DNA of 21,430 bases from a virus, in IMG/VR virus record IMGVR_UViG_3300038461_000015, positions 1 to 21,430 of that record, one strand, 5' to 3'. Shown in pieces: positions 1 through 20,295 of this stretch. A program made the translations under genes and the position numbers. Position 1 is the first letter of the stretch. Each line of letters opens with the position of its first letter. A model generated the notes under the pieces. That model saw only the letters and a list, made by a program, of their open reading frames with translations, searched no databases and was not told the origin of the DNA.

Positions 1-588
1 GTTGGCCACGTAGGCGTAGGCGCCGCTGGGCGTGACCGCTACGCCGAAGGGGCCGGTCCCGACGGTTACGGTGGCGACGACGGTGTTGTCACTGGTTCGG
101 ATGACCGAGACGTTGTCGGAGCCGTGGTTGGCCACGTAGGCGTAGGCGCCGCTGGGCGTGACCGCTACGCCGATGGGGCTGGTCCCGACGGTTACGGTGG
201 CGACGACGGTGTTGTCACTGGTTCGGATGACCGAGACGTTGTTGGAGCCGTAGTTGGGCACGTAGGCGTAGGCGCCGCTGGGCGTGACCGCTACGCCGTA
301 GGGGCTGGTCCCGACGGTTACGGTGGCGACGACGGTGTTGTCACTGGTTCGGATGACCGAGACGTTGTTGGAGCCGAGGTTGGCCACGTAGGCGTAGGCG
401 CCGCTGGGCGTGACCGCTACGCCGAAGGGGCCGGTCCCGACGGTTACGGTGGCGACGACGGTGTTGTCACTGGTTCGGATGACCGAGACGTTGTCGGAGC
501 CGTGGTTGGCCACGTAGGCGTAGGCGCCGCTGGGCGTGACCGCTACGCCGCGGGGGTTGGTCCCGACGGTCACGGTGGCGCACCCGAC
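1..588 (-). repeat. 126-bp tandem repeats encoding 42-aa YVTN propeller blades
   Basis: Units begin at 1, 127, 253, 379 and 505, a strict 126-bp period (42 codons, in frame with the fibre gene). The array continues beyond the left edge. Units 1-126 and 379-504 are identical by eye over all 126 bases. The others differ at only a few positions, chiefly around the codon following GTxP and at the linker beside VAN. The rightmost unit is partial and is the N-terminal edge of the array. Such DNA-level identity is greater than protein function requires and points to recent duplication or gene conversion. Confidence 0.95.
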
Positions 589-1170
589 ACCGAACCAAAA
601 GGGGGTCCGCGCCAGGAACGCTCGCCCGTAGGCCGTCGTCGAGAGCGCCGCGATGGCCGTGAGGTCGGAGTCGAGCGGCTGAGCGCTCGGAGCGGACGCT
701 CGGACGCCGCGATCGTCCGTGATATTTTCTGCCGTGATCGTGGATGCGAGAGCCGCGACGGCCACTGTCGCCAGGCTGATCTCCCAGACTCCCGCGGCAA
801 CCTGCGTCAGCGCGGGGACGGCAGGAGAGACGGCAGGGGTGCCAGGGAGGACCGCAAGCAAGCTCGTGCGGTTGGCGAGGTCCCTGCGGACAACGATCCG
901 GTCGATGCGCGCATGTGAGGCGTCGGCAGCCGCGAGCGCGAGCGTCTCCTGGCCGGTGTAGACCTCCAGCATGTAGCCCTGAGCGAACGCCGCCCCGGTG
1001 TTCACCCGGACCGACATGGCAGCCGGAGACGAGGGGGAGACGGCAAGCTCGTTTGCGAACCCCGAGACGACGCCGTCGCTCATCATGTGGCTGAGCACCT
1101 GAGCCCAGGCGTCCGAGGTGTATATGCGGTCGCCGCCGACTGAGTCGTAGAACCTGCTGCGCTGCGTCAT
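1..1170 (-). CDS. Tail fibre / receptor-binding protein with YVTN beta-propeller repeats (C-terminus beyond window)
   Basis: The frame is open from ATG 1170 to the left edge, so 390 codons are visible and the C-terminus is missing. AAAGGTG precedes the ATG and the previous gene stops at 1181. Residues 1-190 look like a phage baseplate or fibre attachment domain: RFYDSVGGDRIYTSDAWAQ near the start, then a stretch ending ITAENITDDR, then PLDSDLTAIAALSTTAYGR, a segment common before the distal part of tail fibres. From about residue 195 the protein becomes 42-residue repeats of the type NxVSVIRTSDNTVVATV, VGTxPxGVAVTP, SGAYAYVAN. This matches the YVTN/40-residue beta-propeller family. Its place last in the tail operon, after Dit and the Gp37-like protein, suggests a host-binding or adhesive distal tail protein. 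The repeat family is confident; the binding role is inferred. The target could be a glycan or a surface protein. Confidence 0.85.
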   Translation of the reverse strand, partial: MTQRSRFYDSVGGDRIYTSDAWAQVLSHMMSDGVVSGFANELAVSPSSPAAMSVRVNTGAAFAQGYMLEVYTGQETLALAAADASHARIDRIVVRRDLANRTSLLAVLPGTPAVSPAVPALTQVAAGVWEISLATVAVAALASTITAENITDDRGVRASAPSAQPLDSDLTAIAALSTTAYGRAFLARTPFWFGVGCATVTVGTNPRGVAVTPSGAYAYVANHGSDNVSVIRTSDNTVVATVTVGTGPFGVAVTPSGAYAYVANLGSNNVSVIRTSDNTVVATVTVGTSPYGVAVTPSGAYAYVPNYGSNNVSVIRTSDNTVVATVTVGTSPIGVAVTPSGAYAYVANHGSDNVSVIRTSDNTVVATVTVGTGPFGVAVTPSGAYAYVAN

Positions 1171-1180: not shown

Positions 1181-2275
1181 TTACGCTAGTTCGCTCGTGC
1201 TGATAAGCCCCGCGGGCGAGGTCGGGAACGGCCGCCCCAGAATGGCGACCACTTCGGGCACCACGGAGGACCGGACCGTCTCATCAACTTCTACGATCCG
1301 GGCGGGATAGGACAAGCCGCGTTCCTTGTTGCGGACGGTCACGATGTCTCCGAGGAACCAATCGACCCCGTACCGGAACGATCCATACGCCGAGACGTTG
1401 GCCTCTAGGCTGAACTGGCCGGCGTTGGCCGCGAGCACATCGTCGCCGCGACGCCCGAGCAAGGTCGTATCTCCCACGGTCACGTCTCGGGCGTCGACGA
1501 ATGCCTCGCGTCGATCGAACCCGGTTGGCTCTACGGCGGGGCGCGTGACGATGTCTCGGGCGGCGCCCAAACCCTGACCGGCTACCAGAGCGAGGCTGAT
1601 CGAGCCCGAGAGGTTCGTCAGTTCCGTCCAGGACGCGAGGGTCTCGAATGAGAAGTCGAAAAACACGCTCGCAGACCGATCGGTCCCCGCAATGACGTCG
1701 AACGTGAATCCGCTGGGGAGTCCAAGGGTCGTCGCGAGCGTGGTCTTCCATCCCAGCGCCCCGGCCTGGCCGATCTCCGCCAGGAGGTCGACGAGGTTCT
1801 GGTACCGGGCGTCCTTGGAGATGACGGCTCCGCGTGCGATGTCTGCCGCACAAGCGAGCCCGGGAACGATCCGGAGTGCAGCGGCGGCGGGTCCCATGTT
1901 GTCCCCGACGTAGTGCTTCATGGCCGTCTCGGAGGCGACCGAGGTCTGCGAGTCGTAAGCCATGCCGGCGGTGGGGAGACAGAGGCGCGGGAGCCCTTCG
2001 ATCGAGCTTCCGTTGGCGGTCATCGTGTAGTTCGCGGCTGAGCCCGACTGATCGATCTCCAGCGTGTCCACCAGGAAGATCAACTGATCGCCGCCAGAGG
2101 GGTCGGGCACGAACAGAAGCCGGCCGGCCTCTAGGTTGGGAGCCTGGCGCCAGTTGGCGACCAGCTCGATCGTATCGACGCCCCAGAACCGGCGCGTCAA
2201 GGTGAGCCGGGTCGAGGCTTCTCCCACCAGCCCCAGGGTCGCGAGGGTGTCTCGGTCGAGGATGTAGGCTCTCAT
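1181..2275 (-). CDS. Siphovirus ReqiPepy6 Gp37-like tail protein
   Basis: The protein has 364 residues. ATG 2275 overlaps the Dit stop codon by four bases (ATGA), which fixes the start; a much longer reading of this frame upstream is a shadow of Dit. The N-terminus MRAYILDRDTLATLGLVGE followed by TRLTLTRRFWGVDTIELVANW is typical of the ReqiPepy6 Gp37-like family, found after Dit in siphoviruses of Gram-positive hosts. Later segments (FLVDTLEIDQSG, a Cys-poor middle, then FLGDIVTVRNKERGLSYPARIVEVDETV near the C-terminus) fit a baseplate hub or tail-associated (Tal-like) fold. It probably forms the tail tip between Dit and the fibre. No lytic domain is visible. Family assignment rests on recalled features, not on a search. 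Confidence 0.8.
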   Translation of the reverse strand: MRAYILDRDTLATLGLVGEASTRLTLTRRFWGVDTIELVANWRQAPNLEAGRLLFVPDPSGGDQLIFLVDTLEIDQSGSAANYTMTANGSSIEGLPRLCLPTAGMAYDSQTSVASETAMKHYVGDNMGPAAAALRIVPGLACAADIARGAVISKDARYQNLVDLLAEIGQAGALGWKTTLATTLGLPSGFTFDVIAGTDRSASVFFDFSFETLASWTELTNLSGSISLALVAGQGLGAARDIVTRPAVEPTGFDRREAFVDARDVTVGDTTLLGRRGDDVLAANAGQFSLEANVSAYGSFRYGVDWFLGDIVTVRNKERGLSYPARIVEVDETVRSSVVPEVVAILGRPFPTSPAGLISTSELA

Positions 2276-3153
2276 ATCCCGCTGTACCTCTGGCGCCAGT
2301 AGAGCGCGGCGTAGCCCGAGACGTTCAGCCCGGCGCCGAAGCTGATCCAGTTGGAACCAGGAACGAGGCTCCAGAAGTCCGCATTGGAAAGGTCGAGCGC
2401 AGACATGAGGTCGGTCCGGGTAGCACCCGAAACCAGAGTGACCGACTTGGCGCCGAAGCTCGTATCGATCTCGACGTAGTCGCCTGCCGCGAGCGCGGTC
2501 AGGATCTTGACGATCTGGCCCGTCGTCAGGTTGGACATGTAGACGTTCGTGGCCTCGCCGTACATCCGAATCAGCACCGGAGCATCCACGTCGCCGAGAT
2601 TGACGATTTCCTGACTGACGGCACCGCCCTGCATCGCCACGGGGAACAGGAGCGGCCAGCTCCACCCGCCGGAAGAGTAGAAGTAGAGCCCGACGTCCGC
2701 GATCTCGCGCCAGCACGGGTAGGGCGCATAGAACTCCACATCGGTCGTGATGATGCCTACGGATTCCGGAGACGGAAGGTTGACGGAGAGGGGCTGACAC
2801 TCGATCTCGAGCGGCGCATGGCCTGGCAGGGTGACGCGCAGAATGCCTAGCGCCTGTGTCTCGCCGGATCGGACAGGCTGTCGAACGAGGGCACGGGCGA
2901 ACGCTGCGCGCGCCGTCCAGAAAGCATCCGCGTCAGCGGCCTGGAGCAAACCCGTGACGGTGACCACGCGCGCGGGGGTATCCGTGTCGAGCAGGGTCTG
3001 GCCCGACTGTCCCGGGGTCTTGGTAGTCAGCGGGGAGACGGTGATCGGGCCGACCCCGTCGAGGGCCATCAACGTGATCGGATCGCCTGGGGTGGTGGTC
3101 CAGACCAAGGATGTCCCGCCGTCGGCCGGGAAGAACTCTATGATGTAGCTCAT
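2272..3153 (-). CDS. Distal tail protein (Dit-like, Sipho_tail family)
   Basis: The protein has 293 residues from ATG 3153, one base after the tape-measure TAG (TAGgATG). It starts MSYIIEFFPADGGTS. An early region has PITLMALDGVGPITVSPLT and TPGQSGQTLLDTDTPARVVTVTG, then AFWTARAAFARALVRQP, the usual layout of the N-terminal ring-forming half of siphovirus distal tail proteins. IITTDVEFYAPYPCWRE marks the transition to a galectin-like C-terminal half. Dit forms a hexameric hub at the tail tip linking the tube to the Gp37-like protein encoded next. Position directly after the tape measure supports the call. Nothing suggests carbohydrate-binding inserts. Confidence 0.85.
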   Translation of the reverse strand: MSYIIEFFPADGGTSLVWTTTPGDPITLMALDGVGPITVSPLTTKTPGQSGQTLLDTDTPARVVTVTGLLQAADADAFWTARAAFARALVRQPVRSGETQALGILRVTLPGHAPLEIECQPLSVNLPSPESVGIITTDVEFYAPYPCWREIADVGLYFYSSGGWSWPLLFPVAMQGGAVSQEIVNLGDVDAPVLIRMYGEATNVYMSNLTTGQIVKILTALAAGDYVEIDTSFGAKSVTLVSGATRTDLMSALDLSNADFWSLVPGSNWISFGAGLNVSGYAALYWRQRYSGI

Positions 3154-3154
3154 C

Positions 3155-5953
3155 CTAGAACCCCAGAGCTCGGCGACGCTGCGCCCGGATGATCTGGCGC
3201 TCGACATCATCGTGAGTGACGCCATTGACGATCATCTGACCGATCAGGGGGCCGCTAGGGCTCGCGCCGGCCGAACCGCCAGCCGGACTACCGCCCGCCA
3301 TGAGTTGGGCATGCGACTCAACCGCCGCGCCCTGTGGCAGGTAGACTCGCTCCCGACCCGCCTCGCCGACGTCATAGAAGCCGGCCTCCTGAACGTAGGG
3401 CGTGCCGGCGGCGAGAGCGGTAATCGTCTTGTGAGTGCCGGTGAAGGTGACCGGGATAGGGGTAGAGAACTCAGATGCTACCCACGCTCGCAGGGCCTTG
3501 CCCGCGGCGAGAGCGGCTGTCTTGGAGTCCCCGGAGGTAAACCCTGCGATCAGGTTGGACGCGGCTGTTTGCCCCACAGCAGCAGCGGGCTTCTCAACGC
3601 CGCCAGTGCTGAAGAGGAGATCCTTGATGGTTTGGGCGGCCTTGGTGGCAGCGGCTTGAGATGCTGCAGACATAAAGCCAGCAGAGATGTTCCCTGCGGC
3701 CGTCTGGCCCATAGTTGAGGCGGTCTCGGCGGCGGGGGTAGCGTTGCCCGAGATCAGCGCCTCGATGGCCTCGGCCGCTGCCTTGATCTCCGGGTTCTTC
3801 GATTTCAGCCCGGCAGCCAATTCGGCCATTGCCGCTTTGCCGAGCGGCTGGCCGCCCACCACCAACTGGTTCAGGCGCTCCATCGCGTCCGACTGCAGCT
3901 TGTCGGCCTCTGCCACCAGGACGGGGTCACCCGAGGCCAGCGCGTCGGCGAGCTTCTTGCTCGTGAGCGCGCCGATGATGTCCGCCTCTTCCATCATGGG
4001 CGTGCGGATGTTCTTTAGGCCGGTCACGATGTTGTCCCACTCGTTCGACAGAAGGTCGCGGTTTGCCTGGATGCCGGTGGCGATCGCGGAGGGGATGCCG
4101 GTGGCGATCAGTTCGGCGTCAGTCGCTGCCTTCTGGGTGGCCGCGGGGATGTAGGACGCCAGGTCAGAGGCGGCGGCGCTTACGTCCAGCCCTCTCGCGC
4201 GGAGCGTATCGATGATGTACTGCGGGATGCCCGCGGTGATCAGCGCTGTCTGTGCGGCGGTTTGTGCCATGACCTTTGGGATGGGCGCGAGGATCAGCTC
4301 CATGCCGGCTTCGACGTCCGTGGCAATAGCCCCGGAGTTGGAAGTGATTCCGTCAAACATGGTGCCGGCCTCGGCTTTGACCCCGGGCGCGGCCTCTTTG
4401 AGCGCCGCGATGATGTCCGGAGAGATGCCGTCGGCCTCCAACTTGGTCAGGATGCTCGCCTGTTGGGCAGAGTCGGAGATACCCGCGAACGCCTTGACTG
4501 CCGCGTCCCGGATGTCCGGGTCGGCCGAGCGCAGGTTCGTCTCGAATGTGGACAGGATGCTCTTGACCGAGTCCGTCGCCCACGTCGTTCCGAAGGGGTT
4601 GAGCCCCGCCTTCTCAATGGCAGCAGCCGCCAAGACAACGCCACCCACGATCAGAGCCGGGATGGCAACGGCCGCCGCCACGCCGAGCACGGTGCCGAGT
4701 GTAGTGCCGGCTGCCTCCATAGCAGGGGTACCGCCCGCGATAGCTGCGCCAGCCACCGCCGGGCCACCTGCAACAATTGCCTCCGTCTCCCCTGCGACGA
4801 CGGCTGCGCCTGTGGCGGCGCCTTCGGCCGTGCCTGCGACGATCCACGTCGGCAGTGTGAGCCCGAGTTGCTTGGCGATGATGGGGATGAGGGCCCCGCC
4901 GAGCGAGCCCAAGGAGCCCGCCATCTTCGGGCCGAGTTGCGAGGCAACCAGGAGGAGCGGACCGAACGACTGCCCAAACTCTGCGAGGGTGCCGCCGGCC
5001 TGATGCATCAGCAACGTGAAGCGGGAGCCCCAGGAGTCTTCGATCGCCTGAGCCGCTTTGTCCGTGGCATCGGTCGTGTCTGACGAGGACGTGGCGAAGT
5101 CATCCAAGCTCGTGATGCCCGGCTTGAGTGCGTCCGCCATCTGCGACCCGAGCCGCGTCCCAAACACCTTACCGGCCGCCTGCGCGCGCTCTAGCGGGTC
5201 CTGGATCGAGGAGATTTGCACGATGAGGTCGTTGAGCGTCTGGCCGGGCTTGAGGTTCTTGACGGCAGTCTGGAGGCCCAGCGCTGCCTTGCCCGCGTCG
5301 ATGCCGGCCGAGGCGAACAGGTTGAGCAGGTCAACGCCGTCTTTCTCCGACATGCCCATCGCCTGCATCGCCGGGGCAATCTTCTGGAGCGCCGACTGCA
5401 TGTCGCCGATGACGGTGCCGAACTTCTTCTGGCTGGCCACGAGCTGGTCCATGATCGTGCCGGCGTCGTTGGCTGTCAGGTTCCACGCGTCGGTATCCAT
5501 CTTGAGGTTGTGGACAGCATCGGCAGACTGTCCGGTGGCCTCTTCGTACTTCGCGAACTTCGCGGTGAGGTTGTCTGCCGCCTGGCCTTGCAGCCCGAAG
5601 CCGCTGATGACGCCTGCCAGCGATTGCTCGACCGCATCCATCGACAGGAGACTGGTCTTGTAGATCTGGTCGATGGCGTTGCCCTGCTCCTGGAGGGCGG
5701 AGCCGGAGAGGCCCGTATCGGCGGCCAGCTTTTGGGTCGCCTCGTCAAGCGCCGCAGCCTGCTGACTCGCGATACCGAACGTCGCACCCAGCGCAGCGAG
5801 GCCCGCTGTCTTGAGGGCCTTGTTCAGGTTGTCAGACAGCGTCTCGCCGACGTTCTTGCCGGACTTACTGGCGAGCGCGGTGGCTTGCGCCTCGAAGCCC
5901 GTGCCGTCGAGCGTCAGGTGAATCGCGGTGAAAATGTCGGCGAGCGCGCTCGT
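3155..5953 (-). CDS. Tail tape measure protein, apparent ACG start
   Basis: The protein has about 932 residues. It sets tail length and helps DNA exit. The first ATG in frame is at 5641, but the frame stays open and clearly coding further upstream: ADIFTAIHLTLDGTGFEAQA, then GLAALGATFGIASQQAAALD and GNAIDQIYKTSLLS, which are characteristic tape-measure N-terminal sequences. No ATG, GTG or TTG occurs in this frame between the upstream stop (6053-6055) and 5641. AAGGGAG lies six bases before an ACG at 5953, two bases after the chaperone TAG, exactly where an ATG would be expected. Residues about 310-440 contain Ala/Gly-rich hydrophobic stretches, including TVLGVAAAVAIPALIVGGVV, likely membrane-spanning. 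The C-terminal end carries Ala-rich helical repeats. Identity is sure; the start codon is inferred. Confidence 0.85.
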   Translation of the reverse strand, partial: TSALADIFTAIHLTLDGTGFEAQATALASKSGKNVGETLSDNLNKALKTAGLAALGATFGIASQQAAALDEATQKLAADTGLSGSALQEQGNAIDQIYKTSLLSMDAVEQSLAGVISGFGLQGQAADNLTAKFAKYEEATGQSADAVHNLKMDTDAWNLTANDAGTIMDQLVASQKKFGTVIGDMQSALQKIAPAMQAMGMSEKDGVDLLNLFASAGIDAGKAALGLQTAVKNLKPGQTLNDLIVQISSIQDPLERAQAAGKVFGTRLGSQMADALKPGITSLDDFATSSSDTTDATDKAAQAIEDSWGSRFTLLMHQAGGTLAEFGQSFGPLLLVASQLGPKMAGSLGSLGGALIPIIAKQLGLTLPTWIVAGTAEGAATGAAVVAGETEAIVAGGPAVAGAAIAGGTPAMEAAGTTLGTVLGVAAAVAIPALIVGGVVLAAAAIEKAGLNPFGTTWATDSVKSILSTFETNLRSADPDIRDAAVKAFAGISDSAQQASILTKLEADGISPDIIAALKEAAPGVKAEAGTMFDGITSNSGAIATDVEAGMELILAPIPKVMAQTAAQTALITAGIPQYIIDTLRARGLDVSAAASDLASYIPAATQKAATDAELIATGIPSAIATGIQANRDLLSNEWDNIVTGLKNIRTPMMEEADIIGALTSKKLADALASGDPVLVAEADKLQSDAMERLNQLVVGGQPLGKAAMAELAAGLKSKNPEIKAAAEAIEALISGNATPAAETASTMGQTAAGNISAGFMSAASQAAATKAAQTIKDLLFSTGGVEKPAAAVGQTAASNLIAGFTSGDSKTAALAAGKALRAWVASEFSTPIPVTFTGTHKTITALAAGTPYVQEAGFYDVGEAGRERVYLPQGAAVESHAQLMAGGSPAGGSAGASPSGPLIGQMIVNGVTHDDVERQIIRAQRRRALGF

Positions 5954-6698: not shown

Positions 6699-7457
6699 TT
6701 ACGGGGTCAACCGTTCCCAGGACCACGGCGCAAGCGTCGGGTCGGCCGCCAGGACGTGGCCGGTGAACGTCACCGAAGTACCGGCGGGCGATGCCTCCCC
6801 GAACGAGACATCGAACGTGCCATCGCTCAGGGAGTTGAAGATCGTGACCACTGCGGGCTCGCCGTCCGGGCCAACGGCCTGGAAAACGAAGTCCTTGTAT
6901 GACGCGACCGGGATCATCCCGACGCGCTGCTGGAGGATGGTGGTACCCGCGTCGTCGACCATGACCACGGCATCGCCGGCGTCGTGGGCTCGGATCAGGG
7001 GCGTGGTGAGGTTGAGCGTGAGCCCGGAGACGTAGGTACCGACCTTGACGATCTCAGTCTCCAGCGCATCCCCGACCTTGAGGTACTTGCCGGTGGCGAC
7101 GTTGGTAGCCGCCGTCACGACGATAGCCGTGGCCCCCAGGGCCACGTCGGCCGAGAGGGTCGTTGCGAGGCCGGATGGGCTCGTGGTGGCAGCCGTGCCG
7201 ACTACCGGGGTGATGTTGTGCAGGATCATCTGCAAGACCGCGAGCGACAGTTCGTTGAGCGTCACGGTGGCCGATGCCACGCTCTCGTTGAGGCGGGACA
7301 GGCCGGCGACGTCGGCCGCTGCGCCCATAGGCCGATAGCCGACCACGGTCTCCTTGATGGTGACCTTGGCGGGCTGATCGCTCGGGCCCAACGGCGTGCC
7401 GCCGAACGACTGAGCTGTGGGCGGTCCGAAGATGTAGCTTGTACTGTCTATGGTCAC
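6699..7457 (-). CDS. Major tail (tube) protein with inserted domain
   Basis: The protein has 252 residues from GTG 7457, preceded by AGGAG eight bases upstream. Its position before the chaperones and tape measure, and the start MTIDSTSYIFGPPTAQSF with KVTIKETVVGYRPMG, support a tail tube protein. Its short core regions include NESVASATVTLNELSLAVLQ and, near the end, ASYKDFVFQAVG and GTFDVSFGEASPAGTSVTF. Residues about 97-172 look like a separate beta-rich insertion (GKYLKVGDALETEIVKVGTY, then SGLTLNLTTPLIRAHDAGD). Nearly the same insertion appears in the head-closure protein at 10383-10979. Extra domains in tube proteins usually project from the tail surface. The upstream intergenic region was extended by the HNH insertion. 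Confidence 0.8.
   Translation of the reverse strand: MTIDSTSYIFGPPTAQSFGGTPLGPSDQPAKVTIKETVVGYRPMGAAADVAGLSRLNESVASATVTLNELSLAVLQMILHNITPVVGTAATTSPSGLATTLSADVALGATAIVVTAATNVATGKYLKVGDALETEIVKVGTYVSGLTLNLTTPLIRAHDAGDAVVMVDDAGTTILQQRVGMIPVASYKDFVFQAVGPDGEPAVVTIFNSLSDGTFDVSFGEASPAGTSVTFTGHVLAADPTLAPWSWERLTP
6942..7151 (-). repeat. Shared virion domain, copy A (in the tail tube protein)
   Basis: This encodes residues 103-172 of the tail tube protein. It aligns without gaps to residues 36-105 of the head-closure protein, with about 42 identical residues of 70 by hand count. Blocks in common are VATGxYL, GDxxETEI, TYVSGLT, TPL, HDxGD and VDxAGT. The ETE...TYVSGLT...TPL...HDxGD pattern is of a kind found as beta-rich inserts in many phage virion proteins. 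Confidence 0.8.
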
Positions 7458-7529
7458 GGTACGTTCTCCTGTCGTGCTATGGGTGGGGCAAACGGACGGG
7501 CGGATCTACCCAAAGGCCGCCCTCCCTCT

Positions 7530-7625
7530 GGTGTACAATGTCTGTGTCGGCTGGTCTGGAGCCGTTTTCTCATGCCCCGCCCGAGGCCAGACCCCGGAGG
7601 CGGGGCGCTTCATTGGGTGGCCGGA
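7530..7625 (+). promoter_or_regulatory. Leader of HNH gene 1 with TACAAT box and hairpin
   Basis: The sequence from GGTGTACAAT (7530-7539) to the HNH start closely matches the leader at 8951-9046. TACAAT at 7534-7539 resembles a -10 hexamer; no good -35 is seen. GCCCCGC at 7574-7580 can pair with GCGGGGC at 7600-7606 (7 bp, 19-base loop). The ATG at 7572 opens the same frame as the HNH gene and is also conserved in the other copy, so part of this leader may be translated. The rest of the gap, 7458-7529, holds the tail tube ribosome site and nothing else recognisable. Confidence 0.5.
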
Positions 7626-8240
7626 ATGGCGAGAGACCCCGCAAAGGCGCGAGCCGCCACGGCGAAGTGGGCCGCCAGCCATCGCGAAGAGATACGGGTG
7701 TACGGCCAGGCCTACCGAGCGTCGCATCGTAAGGAAGCGAGGGCCTACGCACTCACCCGTCGAGCAGCCCACATTGACGAGATTCGGGCGGCCGACCGCG
7801 CCTACGCCGCCGAGCGCCGACCGATGCATCGTGAGGAAGCGAGGGCCTATGCCCGAGCCTATCGGATGGCGCACCCCGAGAAGTCGCAGGCTGACAATCG
7901 AGCCTACGCCAACGCTCATCGCGAAGAGATAACGGCGTACCAGGCGGCCTACCGAGCGTCGCACCGCGACGCGGCCCGTGAGCATTACCGGAAGGCCAAA
8001 GCCATCCGCCGGGGGGCCGCCCTGTGCGACCATCCGGGCTGTCTGACCATCGGCCCTGACGCTCTCGCCTGGCAGACCAACCCGCATGTCTGCCACCTGT
8101 GCGGTACGCCCGTCTGGCGTGGTGTGAACCTCCACATGGATCACGTCGTGCCGATCTCTCGGGGAGGTCTGCACTGCGCCGACAACCTGAGGCCGGCATG
8201 CGGTCCGTGCAACGTGCGGAAGGGCGCCCGGGTGGCGTGA
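7626..8240 (+). CDS. HNH homing endonuclease 1, plus strand, with helical repeats
   Basis: The protein has 204 residues from ATG 7626 (MARDPAKARAATAKW), chosen by alignment with the second copy; ATG 7572 would add 18 residues. Residues 15-125 are degenerate repeats of about 14-16 residues (AxHREExxAYxxAYRAS), charged and helical, as in many free-standing phage HNH proteins, probably for DNA contact. The C-terminal nuclease has C156/C159 (CHLCGTP), DH at 172-173 in HMDHVVPISRGG, N187, and C192-C195 with N196. This is an HNH zinc-supported metal-finger nuclease. It is opposite in strand to all virion genes, lies between an intact 84-aa gene and the intact tail tube gene, and ends 10 bases before the former. 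It is most likely a homing endonuclease nicking or cutting the insertion site in related phages. Confidence 0.85.
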   Translation: MARDPAKARAATAKWAASHREEIRVYGQAYRASHRKEARAYALTRRAAHIDEIRAADRAYAAERRPMHREEARAYARAYRMAHPEKSQADNRAYANAHREEITAYQAAYRASHRDAAREHYRKAKAIRRGAALCDHPGCLTIGPDALAWQTNPHVCHLCGTPVWRGVNLHMDHVVPISRGGLHCADNLRPACGPCNVRKGARVA

Positions 8241-8513: not shown

Positions 8514-8939
8514 CTATATGGCTGCGAGGGTTGTGGGAAACCTGACTACCAGCGCCCAAAGCGGCTGACCGGTGCCTGTTGGGGGATAGGGGTCGTGGTC
8601 GATCCCAGATGAGACGACTTGGCTGTGCCAGATTCCCAACCCGGACGCGGCCTTGCGGGCGCCGACGTTGCGGAAGACCGCCTCGCCCAACATCCCGAAA
8701 GCCTCCGCGTCGACGTAGTTCGTGCCGTAGAACCGGACGTAGAGCGTCACGTCGCGGATTGGCATGTGCGGGATAGGTGGGCCATCGCCCCAGGCCACGA
8801 CCACGAACCGTTGGAAGGGGGTCTTGGAGTCGCCCGCTGCCGGCTCGTGTGCCCGGATCCTGTTGCCGCATGTCGAGCCCACGGCGGCCAGTAGCTCGGC
8901 GATGGCGGCGGCGATTGGGGAGAGCGCTTCGGCGGTCAT
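8514..8939 (-). CDS. Tail terminator / tail completion protein
   Basis: The protein has 141 residues from ATG 8939. The helical N-terminus MTAEALSPIAAAIAELLAAV is followed by a beta-rich part (FQRFVVVAWGDGP, RDVTLYVRFYGT, YVDAEAFGMLGEAVFRNVG, ALVVRFPTTLAAI). This alpha-then-beta pattern, with length near 130-140 and position between the gp10-like protein and the tail tube, is that of lambda gpU-type or DUF3168-type tail terminators, which cap the tube and dock it to the head. HNH gene 2's leader begins just 11 bases upstream of its start codon, leaving only a GGGGG-type weak ribosome site. The role is inferred from context and general pattern. Confidence 0.65.
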   Translation of the reverse strand: MTAEALSPIAAAIAELLAAVGSTCGNRIRAHEPAAGDSKTPFQRFVVVAWGDGPPIPHMPIRDVTLYVRFYGTNYVDAEAFGMLGEAVFRNVGARKAASGLGIWHSQVVSSGIDHDPYPPTGTGQPLWALVVRFPTTLAAI

Positions 8940-8950
8940 GGCTGCCCCCA

Positions 8951-9046
8951 GGTGTACAATGTGCGGGACGGCAGGCTTGGTGCCGGTTTTCTATGCCCCG
9001 TCTTCGGCCAAGCCCCGGAGGCGGGGCACTCCATATCGGAGAGGCT
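8951..9046 (+). promoter_or_regulatory. Leader of HNH gene 2 with TACAAT box and hairpin
   Basis: This matches the leader at 7530-7625. GGTGTACAATGT begins at 8951, TACAAT is at 8955-8960, a TTTTCT tract precedes ATG 8993, and GCCCCG (8995-9000) can pair with CGGGGC (9022-9027). GGAG at 9038-9041 sits five bases before GTG 9047, a usable ribosome site. The hairpin lies between the possible promoter and this site and could control access to it. Confidence 0.5.
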
Positions 9047-9868
9047 GTGAGAGACCCCGCAGAGCAGAAGGCGCGCAGCGCGGCTTACTATGCTGCCCAT
9101 CGCGACGCGATCAAGGCTCGGGCGGCCGCCTACCGCTTGACCCACTTGGAGCAAGAGCGGGCGCACCATGCCGCCCACTACGCGGCGCACCGAGACGAGG
9201 ACAATGCTCGGCGCAAGGCTCATTACGCGGCGCATCGCGAGGAGGCCAAGGTAAGCGGCGCGGCGCACTACAGAGCCCACCGCGAAGAGATAGCGGCTTG
9301 GAGCGTGGGCTACTATGCGGCGAATCGTGAGAGGATCATCGCCCGAGGCCGGGCATACAGACACGCCCAAACTGCGGCCCGGCGGGAAGCTCGCGGCGAG
9401 ATTATCACCCTGACTCCGCGTGAACGGGGTGCGGCATACCGCCAAGCCCACAGGGCCGAGGTAATCGCGTATCGCGTCGCCTATCGTGCCGCCCACCGTG
9501 AGGAACTGCAGGCCTATGCCGCGGCCTACCATGAGCGGGAGCGGGAGCGAGCCCGGGCTAACCATGCCGCGTGGGAAGCGGCCAACCCGGACAGGGTCCG
9601 CGAGCATAGGCGAAGGATGAAGGCCGTCCGGCGCGGCGCGCCGCTGTGCGACCACGCTTCGTGTCTGGCGCTCGGCGCGTCGGCCCTCGCCTGGCAAGTC
9701 AACCCGCATGTCTGCTACATCTGCGGAACGCCCGTGTTCATGGGCAAGGGCGGCAACCTTCATTTCGATCACGTCATCCCGATCTCGCGGGGCGGCGTCC
9801 ATTGCGCTGAAAACCTCCGGCCCGCTTGCGCGCCGTGCAACCAGCGCAAGGCCGCCAAGGTAGCCTGA
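9047..9868 (+). CDS. HNH homing endonuclease 2, plus strand, with helical repeats
   Basis: The protein has 273 residues from GTG 9047 (VRDPAEQKARSAAYYAAHR), supported by GGAG upstream; ATG 8993 would add 18 residues. It is a paralogue of the gene at 7626-8240, with more N-terminal repeat units of the type YYAAHREExxA (residues about 10-195). The nuclease end has C223/C226 (CYICGTP), DH at 241-242 in HFDHVIPISRGG, N256, C261/C264 and N265. Most of the last 70 residues match the first copy. It lies between an intact gp10-like gene (stop 9877) and an intact tail terminator gene. Joining the flanks without the element would leave roughly 20 bases between those two genes, consistent with clean insertion. 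Confidence 0.85.
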   Translation: MRDPAEQKARSAAYYAAHRDAIKARAAAYRLTHLEQERAHHAAHYAAHRDEDNARRKAHYAAHREEAKVSGAAHYRAHREEIAAWSVGYYAANRERIIARGRAYRHAQTAARREARGEIITLTPRERGAAYRQAHRAEVIAYRVAYRAAHREELQAYAAAYHERERERARANHAAWEAANPDRVREHRRRMKAVRRGAPLCDHASCLALGASALAWQVNPHVCYICGTPVFMGKGGNLHFDHVIPISRGGVHCAENLRPACAPCNQRKAAKVA

Positions 9869-10979: not shown

Positions 10980-11626
10980 GTGGTCGCCCCGATCCGGTCA
11001 TCCTCAGACGAGGTGCGGATGCGCATGGTGCCCTTCGGCAGGTGCGTCATAAGCGAGCGGATCAGCACCTTGCGCGGGTCGATTTCTCCAGGCCCCGGCC
11101 GGAGGTGCTTGGCGTAGCTGTAGTCGCCGATATGCTCGGCCTGGTAGCCCGATTCGGTCATGGTCATCCGGCAGAGTTCGATCACGACGCGGACCACTTC
11201 GAGAGAGTCGTTCGGCGTGTAGGTGACCTCGACCAGCGGGCCATTCCAGCCTCCGGATGCCCGTTCCACGAGCGTCCCCTGACGCAACAGGCGGATATCA
11301 CCCGCCGAGATGGTCACGCCGTTGTCTACAACTGTCACGGCGTCCGTGGGGCGCAACAGGCCGAGTGGTCCCATGCGGTCGGACATCATCCAGAACGCCG
11401 CATAACCGGAGCGGTCCGGCTGCATCGCCACGGTGTCGATATAGAGCCCCATCTGGGCTGGGTCGCCGATGTAGTACGCCTGCGTCCGGGAACCGGAGAG
11501 GTCGGTGATCTGCCGCGCGAGCATCGCCTCCTCGCGATTGATCACATCCTGAATGTCCGCGTCGGCCATCGGTTGCGCGGGTGATACCAGCGCCTTGACC
11601 TGTGCGAGGGTCGTCAGACTCGTCAT
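10976..11626 (-). CDS. Head-tail adaptor / connector protein
   Basis: The protein has 216 residues. ATG 11626 overlaps the glycosyltransferase stop (ATGA), and its own stop overlaps the next start in the same way. Longer upstream readings are shadows of the glycosyltransferase. The beginning, MTSLTTLAQVKALVSPAQPM and ADADIQDVINREEAMLARQI, is the helical opening typical of HK97 gp6 / SPP1 gp15-type adaptors. A beta-rich centre follows (GPLGLLRPTDAVTVVDNGVT, DIRLLRQGTLVERASGGWNG), then VRVVIELCRMTMTESGYQAE and GEIDPRKVLIRSL. It likely forms the ring below the portal. Function is inferred from pattern and gene order. Confidence 0.7.
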   Translation of the reverse strand: MTSLTTLAQVKALVSPAQPMADADIQDVINREEAMLARQITDLSGSRTQAYYIGDPAQMGLYIDTVAMQPDRSGYAAFWMMSDRMGPLGLLRPTDAVTVVDNGVTISAGDIRLLRQGTLVERASGGWNGPLVEVTYTPNDSLEVVRVVIELCRMTMTESGYQAEHIGDYSYAKHLRPGPGEIDPRKVLIRSLMTHLPKGTMRIRTSSEDDRIGATT

Positions 11627-12348
11627 CGGGGCCACTCCCATTCGATCTTGTCTCGGACCACGATCCCGTGGGCGCCGTCGTTGTCTCCGAGCGGTCCCCA
11701 TGTCTTCAGGAGTGCATGGCCCGCGAGCATCCCCTCGACCTTGGCGATACGGAAGCCGGCGGTCTGTAGGCGCTCGCCGAACTCGACATCCTCGCCGCCG
11801 TACTTCCACGCTTCCTTGACGACTTCCTTGCGCGTCATAACGTCGCCGAAGTGCCAGGTGACGGTCTGCTGATCGGTGACAAACCAGGGCTGAGTCAGCG
11901 TCTCGAAAACCCTTCGGTGGATCAACGTGCAGCCGAACGGCGCCCACTCGATGATGCCTTTGTTCGGCCGCGGCATACACGGCCAGCAGCCAGGAGATAC
12001 AGCCCCACCGTCGCCGCTGTCCGCGCGCTTGGGGACGATCCAGCCCTTCGGGTAGCCGACGGGGTAGTCGACCGCGGCCACGTCAGCGTTGAGTGCGAGG
12101 GACGCCGTGAGGGCGTCAGCGGGCGGCACGGTGTCCTCTTCGACGAACCAGAGGTACTCGGCGCCGGTTGCCATGCCCAACTCCGTCACGCGCTCGTGAC
12201 AATCGGGAATGGGCAAGTCGTGGGTAAACCGCCAGCCACGGCACTCGTGGCCGGCGGCTACCGCTTGGTCGACGTTGGCCATCACGGCCTCGGCGGTCCG
12301 GCTATGCACCAGACCGCGCGAGGGCGTCAGGACCACGAAAGAGGACAC
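11623..12348 (-). CDS. GT-A (family 2-like) glycosyltransferase
   Basis: The protein has 241 residues from GTG 12348; no clear ribosome site precedes it, but the 26-codon ORF ends three bases upstream, so translation may be coupled. MSSFVVLTPSRG is a typical GT-A opening strand. FVEEDTVPP (residues 68-76) occupies the position of the nucleotide-sugar/metal-binding DxD motif. WAPFGCTLIHRRVFE (135-149) matches the acceptor-side loop common in such enzymes. GGEDVEFGERLQTAGF (184-199) resembles the ED...L..R...G catalytic-base motif, followed by H211. It probably transfers a sugar from a nucleotide sugar. The substrate is unknown; capsid or tail protein, or host surface polymer, are possible. Its place between capsid and adaptor genes is unusual but the gene is fully integrated in the operon. 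Confidence 0.75.
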   Translation of the reverse strand: MSSFVVLTPSRGLVHSRTAEAVMANVDQAVAAGHECRGWRFTHDLPIPDCHERVTELGMATGAEYLWFVEEDTVPPADALTASLALNADVAAVDYPVGYPKGWIVPKRADSGDGGAVSPGCWPCMPRPNKGIIEWAPFGCTLIHRRVFETLTQPWFVTDQQTVTWHFGDVMTRKEVVKEAWKYGGEDVEFGERLQTAGFRIAKVEGMLAGHALLKTWGPLGDNDGAHGIVVRDKIEWEWPR

Positions 12349-14372: not shown

Positions 14373-14837
14373 CTACTCTTTCTTGTGCGCTTCTGCCCTG
14401 AGCGTCTCCTGTTCGTAATCCCAGGTGGTTTCGACTGTGGTCACGAACCCGGCTGCTTCGATGGCCGCCCGGAAGGTCGCCAGACTCCAGCCGGTCTTGT
14501 GGAACTCGCCCTCGTGAGCCTGATTGCCGAAGATGATCTGTTGCGCCCATGTCTCGCCGGGATGGTCGAGCCAGTAGCGGCACGCATAGTCCAGATTCGG
14601 AACCTGGATCACGGCTGTGCCGCCGGGACGGAGGACGCGGAACCATTCGGCCAGCGTCGGCGCGACTTGCGCGAGCGGCACGTGCTCCAGAGCGTGGCTT
14701 GACCAGATCTCGTCAACCGAACCGTCAGCGAGCGGCAGCGCCCACATCTCAGCCCGAATGTCGGCCCCGGTGAAGGCGTCCACCGTCTTGAAGTCCGAAG
14801 CGTGCCGGATCGGGCCGGCGCCTATGTCGAGTTTCAC
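14373..14837 (-). CDS. SAM-dependent methyltransferase (class I)
   Basis: The protein has 154 residues from GTG 14837, overlapping the portal stop by four bases (GTGA). LDIGAGP (residues 3-9) is motif I for S-adenosylmethionine binding and begins almost at the N-terminus, so this is a minimal enzyme. Motif II-like LADGSVDEIWSSHALEHVP (36-54) and motif III-like EWFRVLRPGGTAVIQVPN (64-81) follow. WAQQIIFGNQAHEGEFHKTG and TFRAAIEAAGF near the end are as in methyltransferases grouped with sugar and polysaccharide genes. It lacks a DPPY or ENV motif, so DNA methylation is unlikely. Substrate is unknown. A glycosyltransferase six genes downstream in the same operon makes sugar or protein modification plausible. 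Confidence 0.8.
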   Translation of the reverse strand: MKLDIGAGPIRHASDFKTVDAFTGADIRAEMWALPLADGSVDEIWSSHALEHVPLAQVAPTLAEWFRVLRPGGTAVIQVPNLDYACRYWLDHPGETWAQQIIFGNQAHEGEFHKTGWSLATFRAAIEAAGFVTTVETTWDYEQETLRAEAHKKE

Positions 14838-16362: not shown

Positions 16363-17811
16363 TCAGAAGCTCGCGTGTCGGTAGATTTTCTTGATGGTCG
16401 GTGGCTCAGAGGCGAGCCAAACTGCCCGGATCGCCGCGAGCGCGGCAGTAATCGGTCGGTCGTCATTACCGCGGACGGCTTGGAAACTGCCGGACTCGTC
16501 ATGCTCCTTGCGGGCCGTCCAGACAAGGTCGTTCGTGACGGCTGCGCAATCCGTCCACTTCACCTTCCCGGCCTCGACTGCCGTCACGAACCGCGAAGAG
16601 GCGTTGGCGTACTGCTGTCCGGCGATCGCTTCCGACTTCGGGAAGAACTTGGCGAGCACGGCGTCGGTGAGGGGGTCGAAGCCGACATCGACCACGCCGT
16701 ACTGTGTCGCGGCGATGCGTAGGTCTGCCCCTAGCTTGTCCGTATCGATCGGGTTGCCCGGAACATCGAAGAGGAGTCGGAGGCCGGTCGTTCCATCCGC
16801 CCGGGGCCAGGCAATCGCGGCACTGGCCCGCTGGCCGCGCGGGTCGAGCGCGATCCCCATGAACGCCTTGGTCGGGATCTCCACTTCCGTCTCGCCGAGC
16901 TTCCATGCAGCGTCACTGACCAGGCGCTCACGTATCGAGACGACCCACCGGCAGAGGTGCTCCACCTCGAAGATTGAGAGCGTCCCGGCAAGCTTGTTCG
17001 AGAGGTACTCGGATTCGAGGTTGCCGAAGACCGAACCCATACCCTCGGGCTCGTGTCCCATCGCGGGGTTCGCTTCGGCCCACCCTTTGACATCATCTGC
17101 GGGGAGTGAAGGGGTCGCCGACCATTCGAGATACGCGAGTCCGGGGTCTTTGTCGGCCCTATCGCGGAGCGCGTTCAGGACTGCGCTCTGCTCGTCACCC
17201 GCGTTCGAGAGGTAGAGGATCTGCGGATCAGTGGAAGCAATCGTCGTGGGTTTTGCGGCGGCGATGAAGTCCCACGAGTCGAACTCGCGCAGTTCATCAA
17301 TGATGACGAGGTCGCGGGACGGCCCACGAGCGCCGCCTCGGGTCGGGGCGACGATGCTGTAGACGCCGCCGTTCGAGAGCCGGATTTCCTCCTGGCCGTT
17401 GGCGTAGCGAGGCTTGGTCTGGCGGTCGTTGCGCAGCGGAAACAGGACGTTGTCCTGCTCCCACATGATGTCCGCCACGCGGTAGAAGATGTCCCGGGGC
17501 AGCGATCGATCCTGCGCCGTGTGCATGATCCGCTTGCCCTCGCGGAGACGCTTGACGATCAGCGGAACAAGGATTTCGGTCTTGCCGTTCTGCCGGGCAA
17601 CGACGATCGCGACCTCGCGGAAGAGATGCCGGCCGTCCCGCCCCGTGGCTTCGAGGTAGCGCGCTGCGGACACCTGCCAGGACATGAGCGAGATGCCGAC
17701 GCCGACCGCGGTCTCGCGGAACGCGGCGAGGTCGGACTTCGCGGGGGTCGGGGGTGAGACACGCGGCTTGGCCCGGCCCTTTGGTGATACGACTATCGGC
17801 ATGGCGAGCAT
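16363..17811 (-). CDS. Terminase large subunit
   Basis: The protein has 482 residues from ATG 17811, overlapping the HNH gene TGA by one base; GTG 17814 or ATG 17802 are alternatives. It is the ATPase and nuclease that packages DNA. VVARQNGKTE (about 70-79) is the variant Walker A motif of phage terminases, LVIIDELRE (168-176) is Walker B with the catalytic Glu, and ILYLSNAG (198-205) is the coupling motif. The nuclease half starts at FMGIALDPRG with metal-binding Asp, continues through VVDVGFDPLTDAVLAKFF, and ends NDDRPITAALAAIRAVWLA. No small terminase is recognised nearby; the upstream HNH protein occupies the usual neighbouring slot. Confidence 0.9.
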   Translation of the reverse strand: MLAMPIVVSPKGRAKPRVSPPTPAKSDLAAFRETAVGVGISLMSWQVSAARYLEATGRDGRHLFREVAIVVARQNGKTEILVPLIVKRLREGKRIMHTAQDRSLPRDIFYRVADIMWEQDNVLFPLRNDRQTKPRYANGQEEIRLSNGGVYSIVAPTRGGARGPSRDLVIIDELREFDSWDFIAAAKPTTIASTDPQILYLSNAGDEQSAVLNALRDRADKDPGLAYLEWSATPSLPADDVKGWAEANPAMGHEPEGMGSVFGNLESEYLSNKLAGTLSIFEVEHLCRWVVSIRERLVSDAAWKLGETEVEIPTKAFMGIALDPRGQRASAAIAWPRADGTTGLRLLFDVPGNPIDTDKLGADLRIAATQYGVVDVGFDPLTDAVLAKFFPKSEAIAGQQYANASSRFVTAVEAGKVKWTDCAAVTNDLVWTARKEHDESGSFQAVRGNDDRPITAALAAIRAVWLASEPPTIKKIYRHASF

Positions 17812-18146
17812 CACTCGGCCTTGCTGTAGCTGCGGGTGACAACTGACGAGTCGATCGGCGGCCCCATGCGGACCGGAGCCAAACCGCCGCCCTGAACCTG
17901 CCGCGCGGCCAGGACTTCCGCGTCGGTCATCAGCGAGCCGCCCTTGATGAGGTTGCAGGGACGGCAGAGCACACGCATGTTCTTCGTGTCGAAGACGGCG
18001 CCGCCGTAGTGCCGCGGGACGATATGGTCAACATGCAGCGGCCGGTCGGTCGAGCCACAGATCTGGCACTGGTTGCGGTCGCGTCGGCGGACGAACTGGG
18101 CGAGCCTCTGATAGCTCCGCGTGCCCAGAGGCTTAGCGGCGACCAT
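17811..18146 (-). CDS. HNH endonuclease adjacent to terminase
   Basis: The protein has 111 residues from ATG 18146, with GGGAG six bases upstream; extensions to 18167 or 18296 lack a ribosome site. The compact HNH fold has C27/C30 (CQICGS), HVDHIVPRHYGG with D40-H41, N56, C61/C64 (CRPCN) and N65. HNH proteins directly before terminase and portal are widespread in phages of the HK97 type and are needed for terminase-linked DNA cleavage in packaging in several of them. It is thus likely a packaging partner rather than a homing enzyme, unlike the two plus-strand HNH genes. The C-terminal 40 residues are probably flexible. Confidence 0.85.
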   Translation of the reverse strand: MVAAKPLGTRSYQRLAQFVRRRDRNQCQICGSTDRPLHVDHIVPRHYGGAVFDTKNMRVLCRPCNLIKGGSLMTDAEVLAARQVQGGGLAPVRMGPPIDSSVVTRSYSKAE

Positions 18147-18420
18147 TAGGGGCTCCCGGTGGTGCATAGAGTGGAGTGCATAAACGCGCCGCCGACCTGA
18201 TACCGAGTGGATAGCAGGGCGTGGAAGCTCGGGGGAGAGAGAAAACGGAAGGCCCGGTTTCCGTTTGTGAGGCGTGCGGCCCTGTGGTGCCCCCACCGCC
18301 CCCTATCCATTAGGCAGTTAGGCGTGTATACCCTCTGTTTGTAAGGTTGTGCCACGTTGGCTATCGTAATCCACTCTATGCACTTAGGTTCAGCGTAGCG
18401 GATAGCCACTGCATAGACGC
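18147..18420. other. Intergenic region before the packaging operon
   Basis: This is the longest stretch without a convincing gene and is visibly lower in GC than its flanks, especially 18301-18420. On the minus strand TATACA (18326-18331) resembles a -10 box, with GGCACA 17 bases upstream as a weak -35, so it may hold a promoter for the packaging and head genes. A minus-strand frame (GTG 18424 to TAA 18146) spans it, overlapping both neighbouring genes, but its codon composition does not look like the flanking genes. The 14-bp inverted repeat is listed separately. Confidence 0.45.
18162..18383. repeat. 14-bp perfect inverted repeat, arms about 200 bp apart
   Basis: GTGCATAGAGTGGA at 18162-18175 is the exact reverse complement of TCCACTCTATGCAC at 18370-18383. 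The core TGCATAGA recurs a third time at 18410-18417. The arms could be binding sites for a regulator, recognition sites of an adjacent HNH protein, or remnants of an insertion. Confidence 0.7.
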
Positions 18421-19278
18421 TCACCTGCGTTCAGCCTTGCTCTTACGCGCCCACCACGTCGGCAAGTCATCGCCCTTCTCGACGTTGCACATGCGATGTG
18501 CAGGCTGGAGGTTGTCAAGTCTGTCGCTCCCACCAACCGCAAGCGGCACGATGTGGTCGATCGTCAATGCGAGAGGATGCTGGACCCCTACGTCGCGACG
18601 GATAGGCAGACAGCAGATACCGCAGATGTAGCCGTCGCGCTCCAGAACCAGCGGACGTAGACGCAGTACCTTGTGCTTGCCGCGTCTTCGAACCCGCTCA
18701 CAACCCCTACCGCGATGCCATGCGTCGTAACAGTCGCGTGAACAGAACCGGGCATGCGGCTGGTAACTGTCGAACGTCGTCTGGCAATGCGGGCACGTCA
18801 GAGAACCGTGACCGAGACTTGCCTCTACGCCTGCATCATGGCGGCGAGCGCGTTCCTGCCCAGCGCAACTCTTGGAACAGAAGCGACTCTCCCCCGATCG
18901 CTTGCCCACGAACATGGCACCGCAGAACTCACAGGGCCTTGTCCGTTCGGCTACATCAGCCAACCCAGCAAGGACTTTGGCTGAATGGCGGGCTTCCCGG
19001 ATTGACTCTCTCGCTTCGCGTCGCAGTTCGACCGTCTCAGGCGAGGGTTTCGGGCGGCCATGCGATACGCCATGTGGGCGACACCTGAGTGAGCAACTAG
19101 CCTGCCCGTTATTGGTCGGGCTGAAGTCGGCTCCGCATTTGGCGCATGCCCGAGTCGGATAACGATGCCGATGCGAACTCCAGTTGCAACGCTCGCTGCA
19201 ATACTTCTGATTGGCGTTTGCCGTCACGAATGGGGCGCCGCAGACGAGGCAGGAACGAGCGACATGGAGCGCGGGCAT
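18421..19278 (-). CDS. HNH endonuclease with four N-terminal zinc knuckles
   Basis: The protein has 285 residues from ATG 19278, overlapping the preceding stop by one base (TGATG). Four Cys4 zinc motifs precede the nuclease: C10/C13/C27/C31, C45/C48/C62/C66, C116/C119/C134/C138 and C162/C165/C179/C183. The middle, residues 76-112, is a charged helix. The HNH domain has C219/C222 (YICGIC), DH at 241-242 in TIDHIVPLAVGGSD, N256, H261, C264 and N265. The zinc array probably recognises DNA sequence. It lies between the lysis-like block and the packaging block and is followed by an AT-richer intergenic region, suggesting a mobile homing gene. Being on the same strand and overlapped with its upstream neighbour, it is co-transcribed with them. 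Confidence 0.8.
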   Translation of the reverse strand: MPALHVARSCLVCGAPFVTANANQKYCSERCNWSSHRHRYPTRACAKCGADFSPTNNGQASCSLRCRPHGVSHGRPKPSPETVELRREARESIREARHSAKVLAGLADVAERTRPCEFCGAMFVGKRSGESRFCSKSCAGQERARRHDAGVEASLGHGSLTCPHCQTTFDSYQPHARFCSRDCYDAWHRGRGCERVRRRGKHKVLRLRPLVLERDGYICGICCLPIRRDVGVQHPLALTIDHIVPLAVGGSDRLDNLQPAHRMCNVEKGDDLPTWWARKSKAERR

Positions 19279-19520
19279 CAGTTCGCCCTCGCTGCCATGC
19301 GATGCCAACGGATCAGCCGGGCCACTTCCTTGGGCGGCAGCCCCTCGGTGTTGCCAGCCTCCAGGTCATCTGCACGGTCGCGGTGATACTCGGGCGAGTT
19401 GAGGTACTCAGACATGCGGAAGGCCGGGACGTCTCCCGGCTCTGTCCGCCTAGCCGCCCGATACGGCTCCGATCCAGTGGCCCCATCGGGACTCGGCCAC
19501 TGGTCGGCTCGTTCGCTCAT
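19278..19520 (-). CDS. Small hypothetical protein
   Basis: The protein has 80 residues. ATG 19520 overlaps the preceding stop (ATGA). It is hydrophilic, with acidic and basic residues alternating: MSERADQWPSPDGATG, then MSEYLNSPEYHRDRADDLEA and LPPKEVARLIRWHRMAAR. The second half may be two short helices. No signal peptide or membrane segment and no family recognised. The overlaps on both sides argue that it is a real gene. Confidence 0.6.
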   Translation of the reverse strand: MSERADQWPSPDGATGSEPYRAARRTEPGDVPAFRMSEYLNSPEYHRDRADDLEAGNTEGLPPKEVARLIRWHRMAARAN

Positions 19521-19768
19521 GTCAGGCGCCGTCGCTTGATGATCTGCCCGGCAGGGATGACGATTACGCCCGTGGCGTTGGCACCGTTGACGCTGCCCGC
19601 GAGCATGACGCCCCGCTTGTCATCCGCCAGGACGAAGCCGACCGACACACAGTTCGTCTTCAGATGGTGTCGGTTCTTGACCATGCGCTTGATTGGCGTC
19701 CAGCTGGACAACTCGACATAGGAGTCGAGCCACTCGACTTCGAGTCGCCACGCCTTGCGGTGACTCAC
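19517..19768 (-). CDS. Small conserved-looking hypothetical protein
   Basis: The protein has 83 residues from GTG 19768, chosen because GTGA overlaps the stop of the preceding gene. VSHRKAWRLEVEWLDSYVEL, then SWTPIKRMVKNRHHLKTNCV and SVGFVLADDKRGVMLAGSVN suggest a compact alpha/beta domain ending in IVIPAGQIIKRRRL. The WxxxxxxxxxR...V GFVLADDxxGVxLAxSxN pattern is of a kind I associate with small phage proteins of unknown role. No catalytic motif is visible. Confidence 0.7.
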   Translation of the reverse strand: MSHRKAWRLEVEWLDSYVELSSWTPIKRMVKNRHHLKTNCVSVGFVLADDKRGVMLAGSVNGANATGVIVIPAGQIIKRRRLT

Positions 19769-19950
19769 GACTGCGCCTCTGTCTCTACAGCCCACCATCG
19801 GCTGTGCGCGTAGCCATCTGTCGGAGAGTTGCCCACCATCGGCTGGATGGGCGCAGGGTTGACCGCCATTGAGGCAGCGGGCATTACTCGCTCCGCGAGG
19901 TGCGAGGTGGCCCGAAGGCTCTCGCCGTGCTGTGCGCGGGCGGTCAGCAT
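19765..19950 (-). CDS. Small hypothetical protein
   Basis: The protein has 61 residues from ATG 19950, four bases after the holin-like stop; it ends in a GTGA overlap with the next gene. It is Ala/Ser/Pro-rich (MLTARAQHGESLRATSHLAE, VNPAPIQPMVGNSP) with Trp-Trp near the end. Composition suggests little fixed structure. The tight spacing is the main evidence for coding. Confidence 0.5.
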   Translation of the reverse strand: MLTARAQHGESLRATSHLAERVMPAASMAVNPAPIQPMVGNSPTDGYAHSRWWAVETEAQS

Positions 19951-19954
19951 GTGG

Positions 19955-20287
19955 TTATGCCCTGACCCAGATCTCGGGGCGCCGGAGCCCGGCATGGCTC
20001 GCGGCGCGCTGCACTCGGGAGGCGGGCGCGTATCCGAACGTCCCGAGGAACCAGGTCACGATGCCCGGCAGGAGGTTGCTCTTGAAGACGGCGATGACGG
20101 TCGGGATGGCGACGACCGCGAAGGCGAGCGCCTGCGCTTGCAGATCCACCCAGCTCGTCGGCCAGCTGAAGCCGAAGGCAAATGCCAGGGCCAGGACGGC
20201 CGCAACGATCGAGCCGATGCCCGTACGGGCCCAGAGCGGCAACAGCAGCCAGGCGTTGTGGATCTTGGCGACGAGAGAGGCGAACAT
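19955..20287 (-). CDS. Holin-like membrane protein
   Basis: The protein has 110 residues from ATG 20287, with AGGAG five bases upstream. Longer upstream readings are out-of-frame shadows of the peptidase. Two clear membrane helices lie at about 23-42 (GIGSIVAAVLALAFAFGFSW) and 50-68 (QAQALAFAVVAIPTVIAVF), with a third, weaker one at 71-86. The C-terminus is basic. Small size, helices and position right after a lytic-type peptidase fit a holin, which would form pores in the inner membrane. Holins have little sequence conservation, so this rests on topology and context; a general membrane protein is the alternative. Confidence 0.65.
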   Translation of the reverse strand: MFASLVAKIHNAWLLLPLWARTGIGSIVAAVLALAFAFGFSWPTSWVDLQAQALAFAVVAIPTVIAVFKSNLLPGIVTWFLGTFGYAPASRVQRAASHAGLRRPEIWVRA

Positions 20288-20295
20288 CTTGTCTC

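Follow-up and report, generated by a model that had tools for sequence, protein, structure and literature searches.

A siphophage tail protein with near-identical YVTN blades and its putative role in receptor binding

Domain composition and genomic context

The window, i.e. the whole stretch of DNA analysed here, is an entire IMG/VR record of 21,430 bp that ends inside an array of tandem repeats. On the minus strand, an open reading frame of 390 codons starts with an ATG at position 1170 and shows no stop before base 1; with the record ending there, a leftward extension to a stop codon is precluded. The incomplete product of 390 aa (1..1170, minus strand), which runs off the contig end, is composed of an N-terminal tail domain, a linker and YVTN blades. 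The N-terminal domain (residues 1-155; 706..1170, minus strand) is of the phrog_1220 type, which is also found in tail proteins of Paenibacillus phages and in many phages of IMG/VR. It matches the phage virion families phrog_1220, phrog_5339, phrog_9534 and phrog_27282 with E values of 1e-36 to 1e-27, and a sequence search of the PDB with this domain gave no significant match. The linker (residues 156-198; 577..705, minus strand) includes PLDSDLTAIAALSTTAYGRAFLA and is predicted to be disordered (pLDDT 24-51). The 126-bp tandem array that codes for the YVTN blades (1..580, minus strand) holds 4.6 copies and starts with the outer D strand. Its repeat units 1 to 4 are located at 454..579, 328..453, 202..327 and 76..201, and unit 5 (1..75) is cut by the contig end, all on the minus strand.

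This array (126 bp, 4.6 copies, 95% match) was the only one reported by TRF in the window. An 18-bp piece of the repeat unit occurs four times, compared to 0.06 occurrences expected by chance. The repeats match the Pfam family Lactonase (PF10282) with 55.3 bits (cut-off 21.7), and their best solved relative is the YVTN surface-layer protein 1L0Q (E 1.4e-76). Repeats of about 42 residues with a YVTN-type blade profile are thus present, and the fusion of a tail attachment domain to 42-residue YVTN repeats, proposed in an earlier note on this DNA, is borne out by the phrog_1220 match of residues 1-155, by PF10282 and 1L0Q and by the 126-bp array. Searches for RNA families and tRNAs found none.

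The gene order on the minus strand is tape measure, Dit, Gp37-like and then the gene for the N-domain and YVTN blades. The neighbors are the tape measure protein (C-terminal part or whole, 3155..5641), the distal tail protein Dit (2272..3225) and the Gp37-like minor tail protein (Sipho_Gp37, phrog_538; 1181..2206), all encoded on the minus strand. In Paenibacillus larvae phages, the phrog_1220-type gene occupies the same position, following the tape measure and two tail genes, and in Methanoculleus viruses it comes after genes for a tail protein, annotated as such, and for two hypothetical ones. The gene had also been placed last in the tail operon, a position that the window does not show: the record stops at this gene, and the syntenic Paenibacillus phages continue to holin/amidase genes. 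As the terminase matches phages of Arthrobacter, Gordonia and other actinobacteria with only ~30% identity, an actinobacterial host for the window phage is a guess.

IMG/VR was searched with an alignment of the N-domain and the best 80 loci were kept. Their C-terminal parts vary: some have glycine/histidine-rich fibre segments, others a beta-helix-like module or collar-like ends, and in some nothing follows the N-domain. Among these 80 loci, blades are found on the N-domain only in L002 and L003, which share 100% identity over 20.5 kb and were counted as one phage; the description of the architecture as uncommon is supported. The phrog_1220-type proteins of Paenibacillus larvae and Methanoculleus phages share the N-domain but differ in their C-termini, which are collar-like, beta-helix-like or short fibre domains, with no blades in those examined. 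Two features of tail fibre or receptor-binding proteins are therefore present, namely a tail attachment domain (phrog_1220, 1e-36) within a tail module of the order TMP-Dit-Gp37 and, across the best 80 loci, a shared anchor with exchangeable C-terminal modules. A structural search of BFVD placed the window model close to Siphoviridae proteins with the annotation receptor-binding protein and to minor tail proteins from phages of Microbacterium and Streptomyces.

The relative L002/L003 encodes the same in-frame fusion of N-domain and YVTN blades. Its linker is shorter than that of the window by a 23-residue piece, and PLDSDLTAIAALSTTAYGRAFLA is absent from L002. All three records break within the blade array, so that 4.6 blades can be counted in the window and at least five in the relative, both arrays being cut by contig ends. 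An IMG/VR search for contigs with the far end of the array found none, and the exact repeat was found in no IMG/VR contigs other than the window and L002/L003. A bacterial source of the exact repeat DNA was also considered; nine single matches to an 18-mer only were obtained and taken as chance.

The records are probably short-read assemblies, and the order of the blades is possibly scrambled. The sequences of L002 and L003 differ in their last bases, and the assembler therefore had more than one way to continue. Propeller repeats of 126 bp are known to be assembled unreliably from short reads (PMC12222747). Together with the termination of the window contig inside the array, this end divergence would fit an assembly chimera, in which the end of a phage gene was wrongly joined to a bacterial YVTN array. 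Against such an artefact, which is considered extremely improbable, the in-frame fusion is also found in a second phage that is ~5% diverged and carries a linker indel, and a blade of the NNVSVIRTSDNT type is encoded by another phage, L111, as well.

Predicted structure and YVTN blades in other phages

In the AlphaFold2 monomer of the window protein, the blades are predicted from residue 201 as repeating four-stranded units with pLDDT 80-97. The N-domain is predicted with moderate confidence (pLDDT 70-86 over most of residues 41-155). A Foldseek comparison of the model with the PDB ranked 1L0Q at the top, with 50% identity and an rmsd of 1.0 Å over 189 columns, corresponding to ~4.6 blades. 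The four-stranded blades of the YVTN fold are thus present in the model. The earlier expectation of a propeller holds in part: the blades are confident and match 1L0Q, but a closed ring is not seen in the monomer because the gene is truncated. The archaeal surface-layer protein 1L0Q shares the 42-residue YVTN blades with the window protein but differs as a cellular surface protein with diverged blades, a PKD domain after the propeller and no phage tail. The array starts with a D strand, like rings that are closed by strand exchange. Judging from 1L0Q and from the phage protein L113 described below, the window propeller is most likely seven-bladed and closed by the N-terminal D strand.

The earlier note had suggested a search for other phage proteins of this composition. 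The same fusion was recovered in L002/L003, while elsewhere (L105, L108, L111 and L113) the blades are attached to other N-terminal parts. L113 is a tail-fibre-like protein with an unrelated N-terminal part and exactly seven C-terminal blades. Its model is a seven-bladed propeller, with blades mostly above pLDDT 90, that matches complete propellers. The segments AB and CD of L113 are identical at the DNA level over most blades, and the BC and D/DA regions are variable; this protein shows the blade design of the window independently. L105 carries 16 blades that are more diverged than those of the window, and L111 carries three blades of the NNVSVIRTSDNT type with 70% identity to the window, in both cases on an unrelated N-terminal part. 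Further phage cases of YVTN-type blades are L107/L108. The genes of L105, L111 and L107/L108 adjoin virion, portal, tape measure or tail-fibre genes. L113, L105 and L111 hence resemble the window in that their YVTN blades are encoded by tail-fibre or virion-module genes of phages, and differ from it in their unrelated N-terminal parts. Given the cases of L113, L105, L111 and L107/L108, virion-module proteins of phages have acquired YVTN blades on more than one occasion. The architecture, though rare, is recurrent and not unique among phages. The three blades of L111 (2052-2489) lie mid-chain in a protein of 528 aa; one chain thus has too few blades to form a ring by itself, and any ring would have to be shared by several chains.

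Labels such as YVTN, lactonase or COG3391 are already found on a few proteins of uncultured Caudovirales. Two groups of candidates were set aside. A 41% match in MT836048 was not taken as a phage case, as this is an unverified record with bacterial-looking ORFs; this entry of a phage collection (MT836048.1, L024) encodes a copper oxidase, a phosphorylase and a periplasmic YVTN protein. Similarly, L115-L117 are not recognisably phage and show three blades and a membrane-anchor-like tail.

Propellers are known in the receptor-binding or peripheral baseplate proteins of phages, namely in the five-bladed receptor-binding protein Gp45 of phi11, in PhiKZ gp131 and in P2 of PRD1 (PMC4901313). In PhiKZ gp131, the C-terminal propeller is seven-bladed (4GBF). 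These three proteins are unlike the window protein in that they have other anchors and no near-identical YVTN blades, with no internal repeat reported at the DNA level. In the literature collection that was searched, no paper combines YVTN with bacteriophage and tail fiber. A receptor-binding role of phage propellers is known in a few cases, and the interest of the locus lies in its pattern of diversification rather than in the bare fusion.

Blade variation and putative function

The blades were compared across nine full and two partial copies from the window and L002, i.e. from two phages, and are not independent of each other. Across the nine full blades, 32 of the 42 codons are identical at the DNA level. 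The blades vary at 14 nucleotide positions, of which 13 are nonsynonymous and one is synonymous, an excess that is not significant by site alone (Fisher p 0.11). On the model, the variable codons form two groups, one running from the end of strand D through the DA loop into the start of A and the other from the end of B through the BC loop into the start of C. Almost all blade variation is thus on one face of the predicted propeller. Variable codons make up 8/12 of the top loops and 0/10 of the bottom loops (p 0.002, with loop borders set after the data had been seen). The arrays show high internal conservation, with near-identical DNA repeats and few variable surface codons in the DA and BC loops.

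Within the arrays, pS and pN are 0.000 and 0.042 in the window and 0.019 and 0.061 in L002. Between the two phages, pS amounts to 0.243 in the N-domain and 0.136 in the Gp37-like gene; the divergence of further genes nearby is lower (0.063 in Dit). The blades of the window and L002, in contrast, show zero fixed synonymous differences. For the 34.7 synonymous blade sites, 4.7 to 8.4 differences are expected, and the probability of finding none is 0.009 to 0.0002; at the divergence of Dit, zero blade differences are unremarkable (P 0.11).

As a control, four YVTN proteins from bacterial plasmids were compared in the same way. Their identity is 0.45-0.55 in BC+DA and 0.62-0.79 in AB+CD, with pS values of 0.15-0.45. 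Since these bacterial proteins also vary more in BC+DA, the location of the variation is partly a general property of the YVTN fold. The phage arrays, with AB and CD 100% identical and synonymous variation near nil, are distinguished by the lack of silent change and the full conservation of the other face.

The bacterial comparison bears on a simpler explanation, by which a binding or adhesive propeller was recently amplified and underwent no special diversification, its blades being young and BC and DA being tolerant in any YVTN blade. The amplification of new propellers is an ongoing process in all lineages, including viruses (PMC9218822), and the lower BC+DA identity of the plasmid proteins points in the same direction. 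The near absence of silent change next to fully identical AB and CD segments, compared to the bacterial pS, argues against it, and zero fixed synonymous differences in the blades next to 24% in the N-domain need homogenisation or exchange and not youth alone. Recent amplification by itself is therefore regarded as possible, though doubtful.

Another source of variable codons would be a diversity-generating retroelement (DGR), with the blades as its variable repeats. Adenine is found at 12/14 variable positions, compared to 42% expected from the flanking divergence (p 0.001). However, no reverse transcriptase was found in the relative (34.6 kb) or in five further records, the phage genome being incomplete, and no copy of a template repeat was found outside the array in the available, incomplete records. 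Moreover, many adenines are constant across the blades, among them the silent adenines of GTA (codon 12) and CGA (codon 35), and a DGR is judged very unlikely. The finding that all codons at variable sites are of the form NNC was discarded as a sign of a DGR, as the same pattern results when codons that end in C change at their first two positions.

A known parallel to the blade variation is found in fungi. In the HNWD sensors, WD40 repeats of 126 bp are homogenised by recombination, and four hypervariable codons lie on the interaction surface (PMC12222747). HNWD proteins (het-d/het-e, Podospora) resemble the window protein in their near-identical 126-bp repeats, whose few hypervariable codons map to a single predicted interaction surface, and concerted evolution and assembly trouble are likewise described for them (PMC12222747). 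They differ from it as WD40 rather than YVTN proteins that act as intracellular fungal immune receptors and are known from population data, compared to two phages here. From these likenesses we infer an HNWD-like mode, in which blades would be duplicated and exchanged, also between phages, with selection keeping the loop differences.

A fibre-type N-domain joined to a YVTN propeller is supported by the profiles, the synteny, the independent relative and the confident model. The reading preferred here, a receptor-binding propeller on a siphophage tail fibre that is diversified by recombination of its blades, goes further and is given about an even chance; for the blade number, the recombination and the binding, we infer from the model and the comparisons above. 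According to the synteny, the N-domain would anchor the protein at the tip of the tail, next to Dit and the Gp37-like protein, and the flexible linker would present the YVTN beta-propeller, whose DA/BC-loop face is the likely binding surface. Via recombination, near-identical blades could undergo duplication, loss, changes of order and transfer between phages, and selection would preserve a uniform scaffold with differing loop residues. The receptor surface might thereby change without harm to the fold.

Rather than a binder, the propeller could be a lactonase- or depolymerase-type enzyme, or act as a passive spacer in the structure. Many phage fibres carry enzymes, and the matched Pfam family is named Lactonase. 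As the surface-layer protein 1L0Q, the top match, is no enzyme, and near-identical blades would leave no unique catalytic pocket, this alternative to receptor binding is considered improbable.

In its broadest form, the recombination reading would mean that some phages evolve receptor specificity by recombining near-identical blades that are hypervariable on one face, without a retroelement, and that arrays are traded between phages, as a viral counterpart of the HNWD system. This generalisation is put forward tentatively and with less than even confidence. If true, host recognition would be retuned by repeat shuffling without dedicated mutation machinery, in parallel to the arrays of fungal immune sensors. 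The failure to notice such genes would also be accounted for, as short-read assemblies break in the arrays.

Further observations in the window and a related record

Opposite the tail genes, two ORFs for HNH endonucleases are found on the plus strand (6984-8240 and 8777-9868). In each of them, a long and repetitive His/Ala/Arg-rich N-terminal part precedes the HNH motif. Two further HNH genes are located on the minus strand (17811-18296 and 18421-19308). The same strand encodes, among the head genes, a protein with a weak galactosyltransferase-type match (11623-12348) and a small methyltransferase-like protein (14373-14837) and, just past the terminase region, a papain-family (Peptidase_C1) cysteine protease (20296-21276).

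Positions 17838-21297 of the window are 99.2% identical to the relative (record G001), and the other long aligned blocks share ~82-96% identity. As the identity of this segment is above that of the other blocks, the window phage and G001 are, as far as the alignments indicate, mosaics with recent exchange. The G001 record is broken by repeats at both ends. At its other end, a second array (L020, 16633-17141) consists of 15 repeats of 33 bp that code for coiled-coil-like AESQKAYxAAL repeats.
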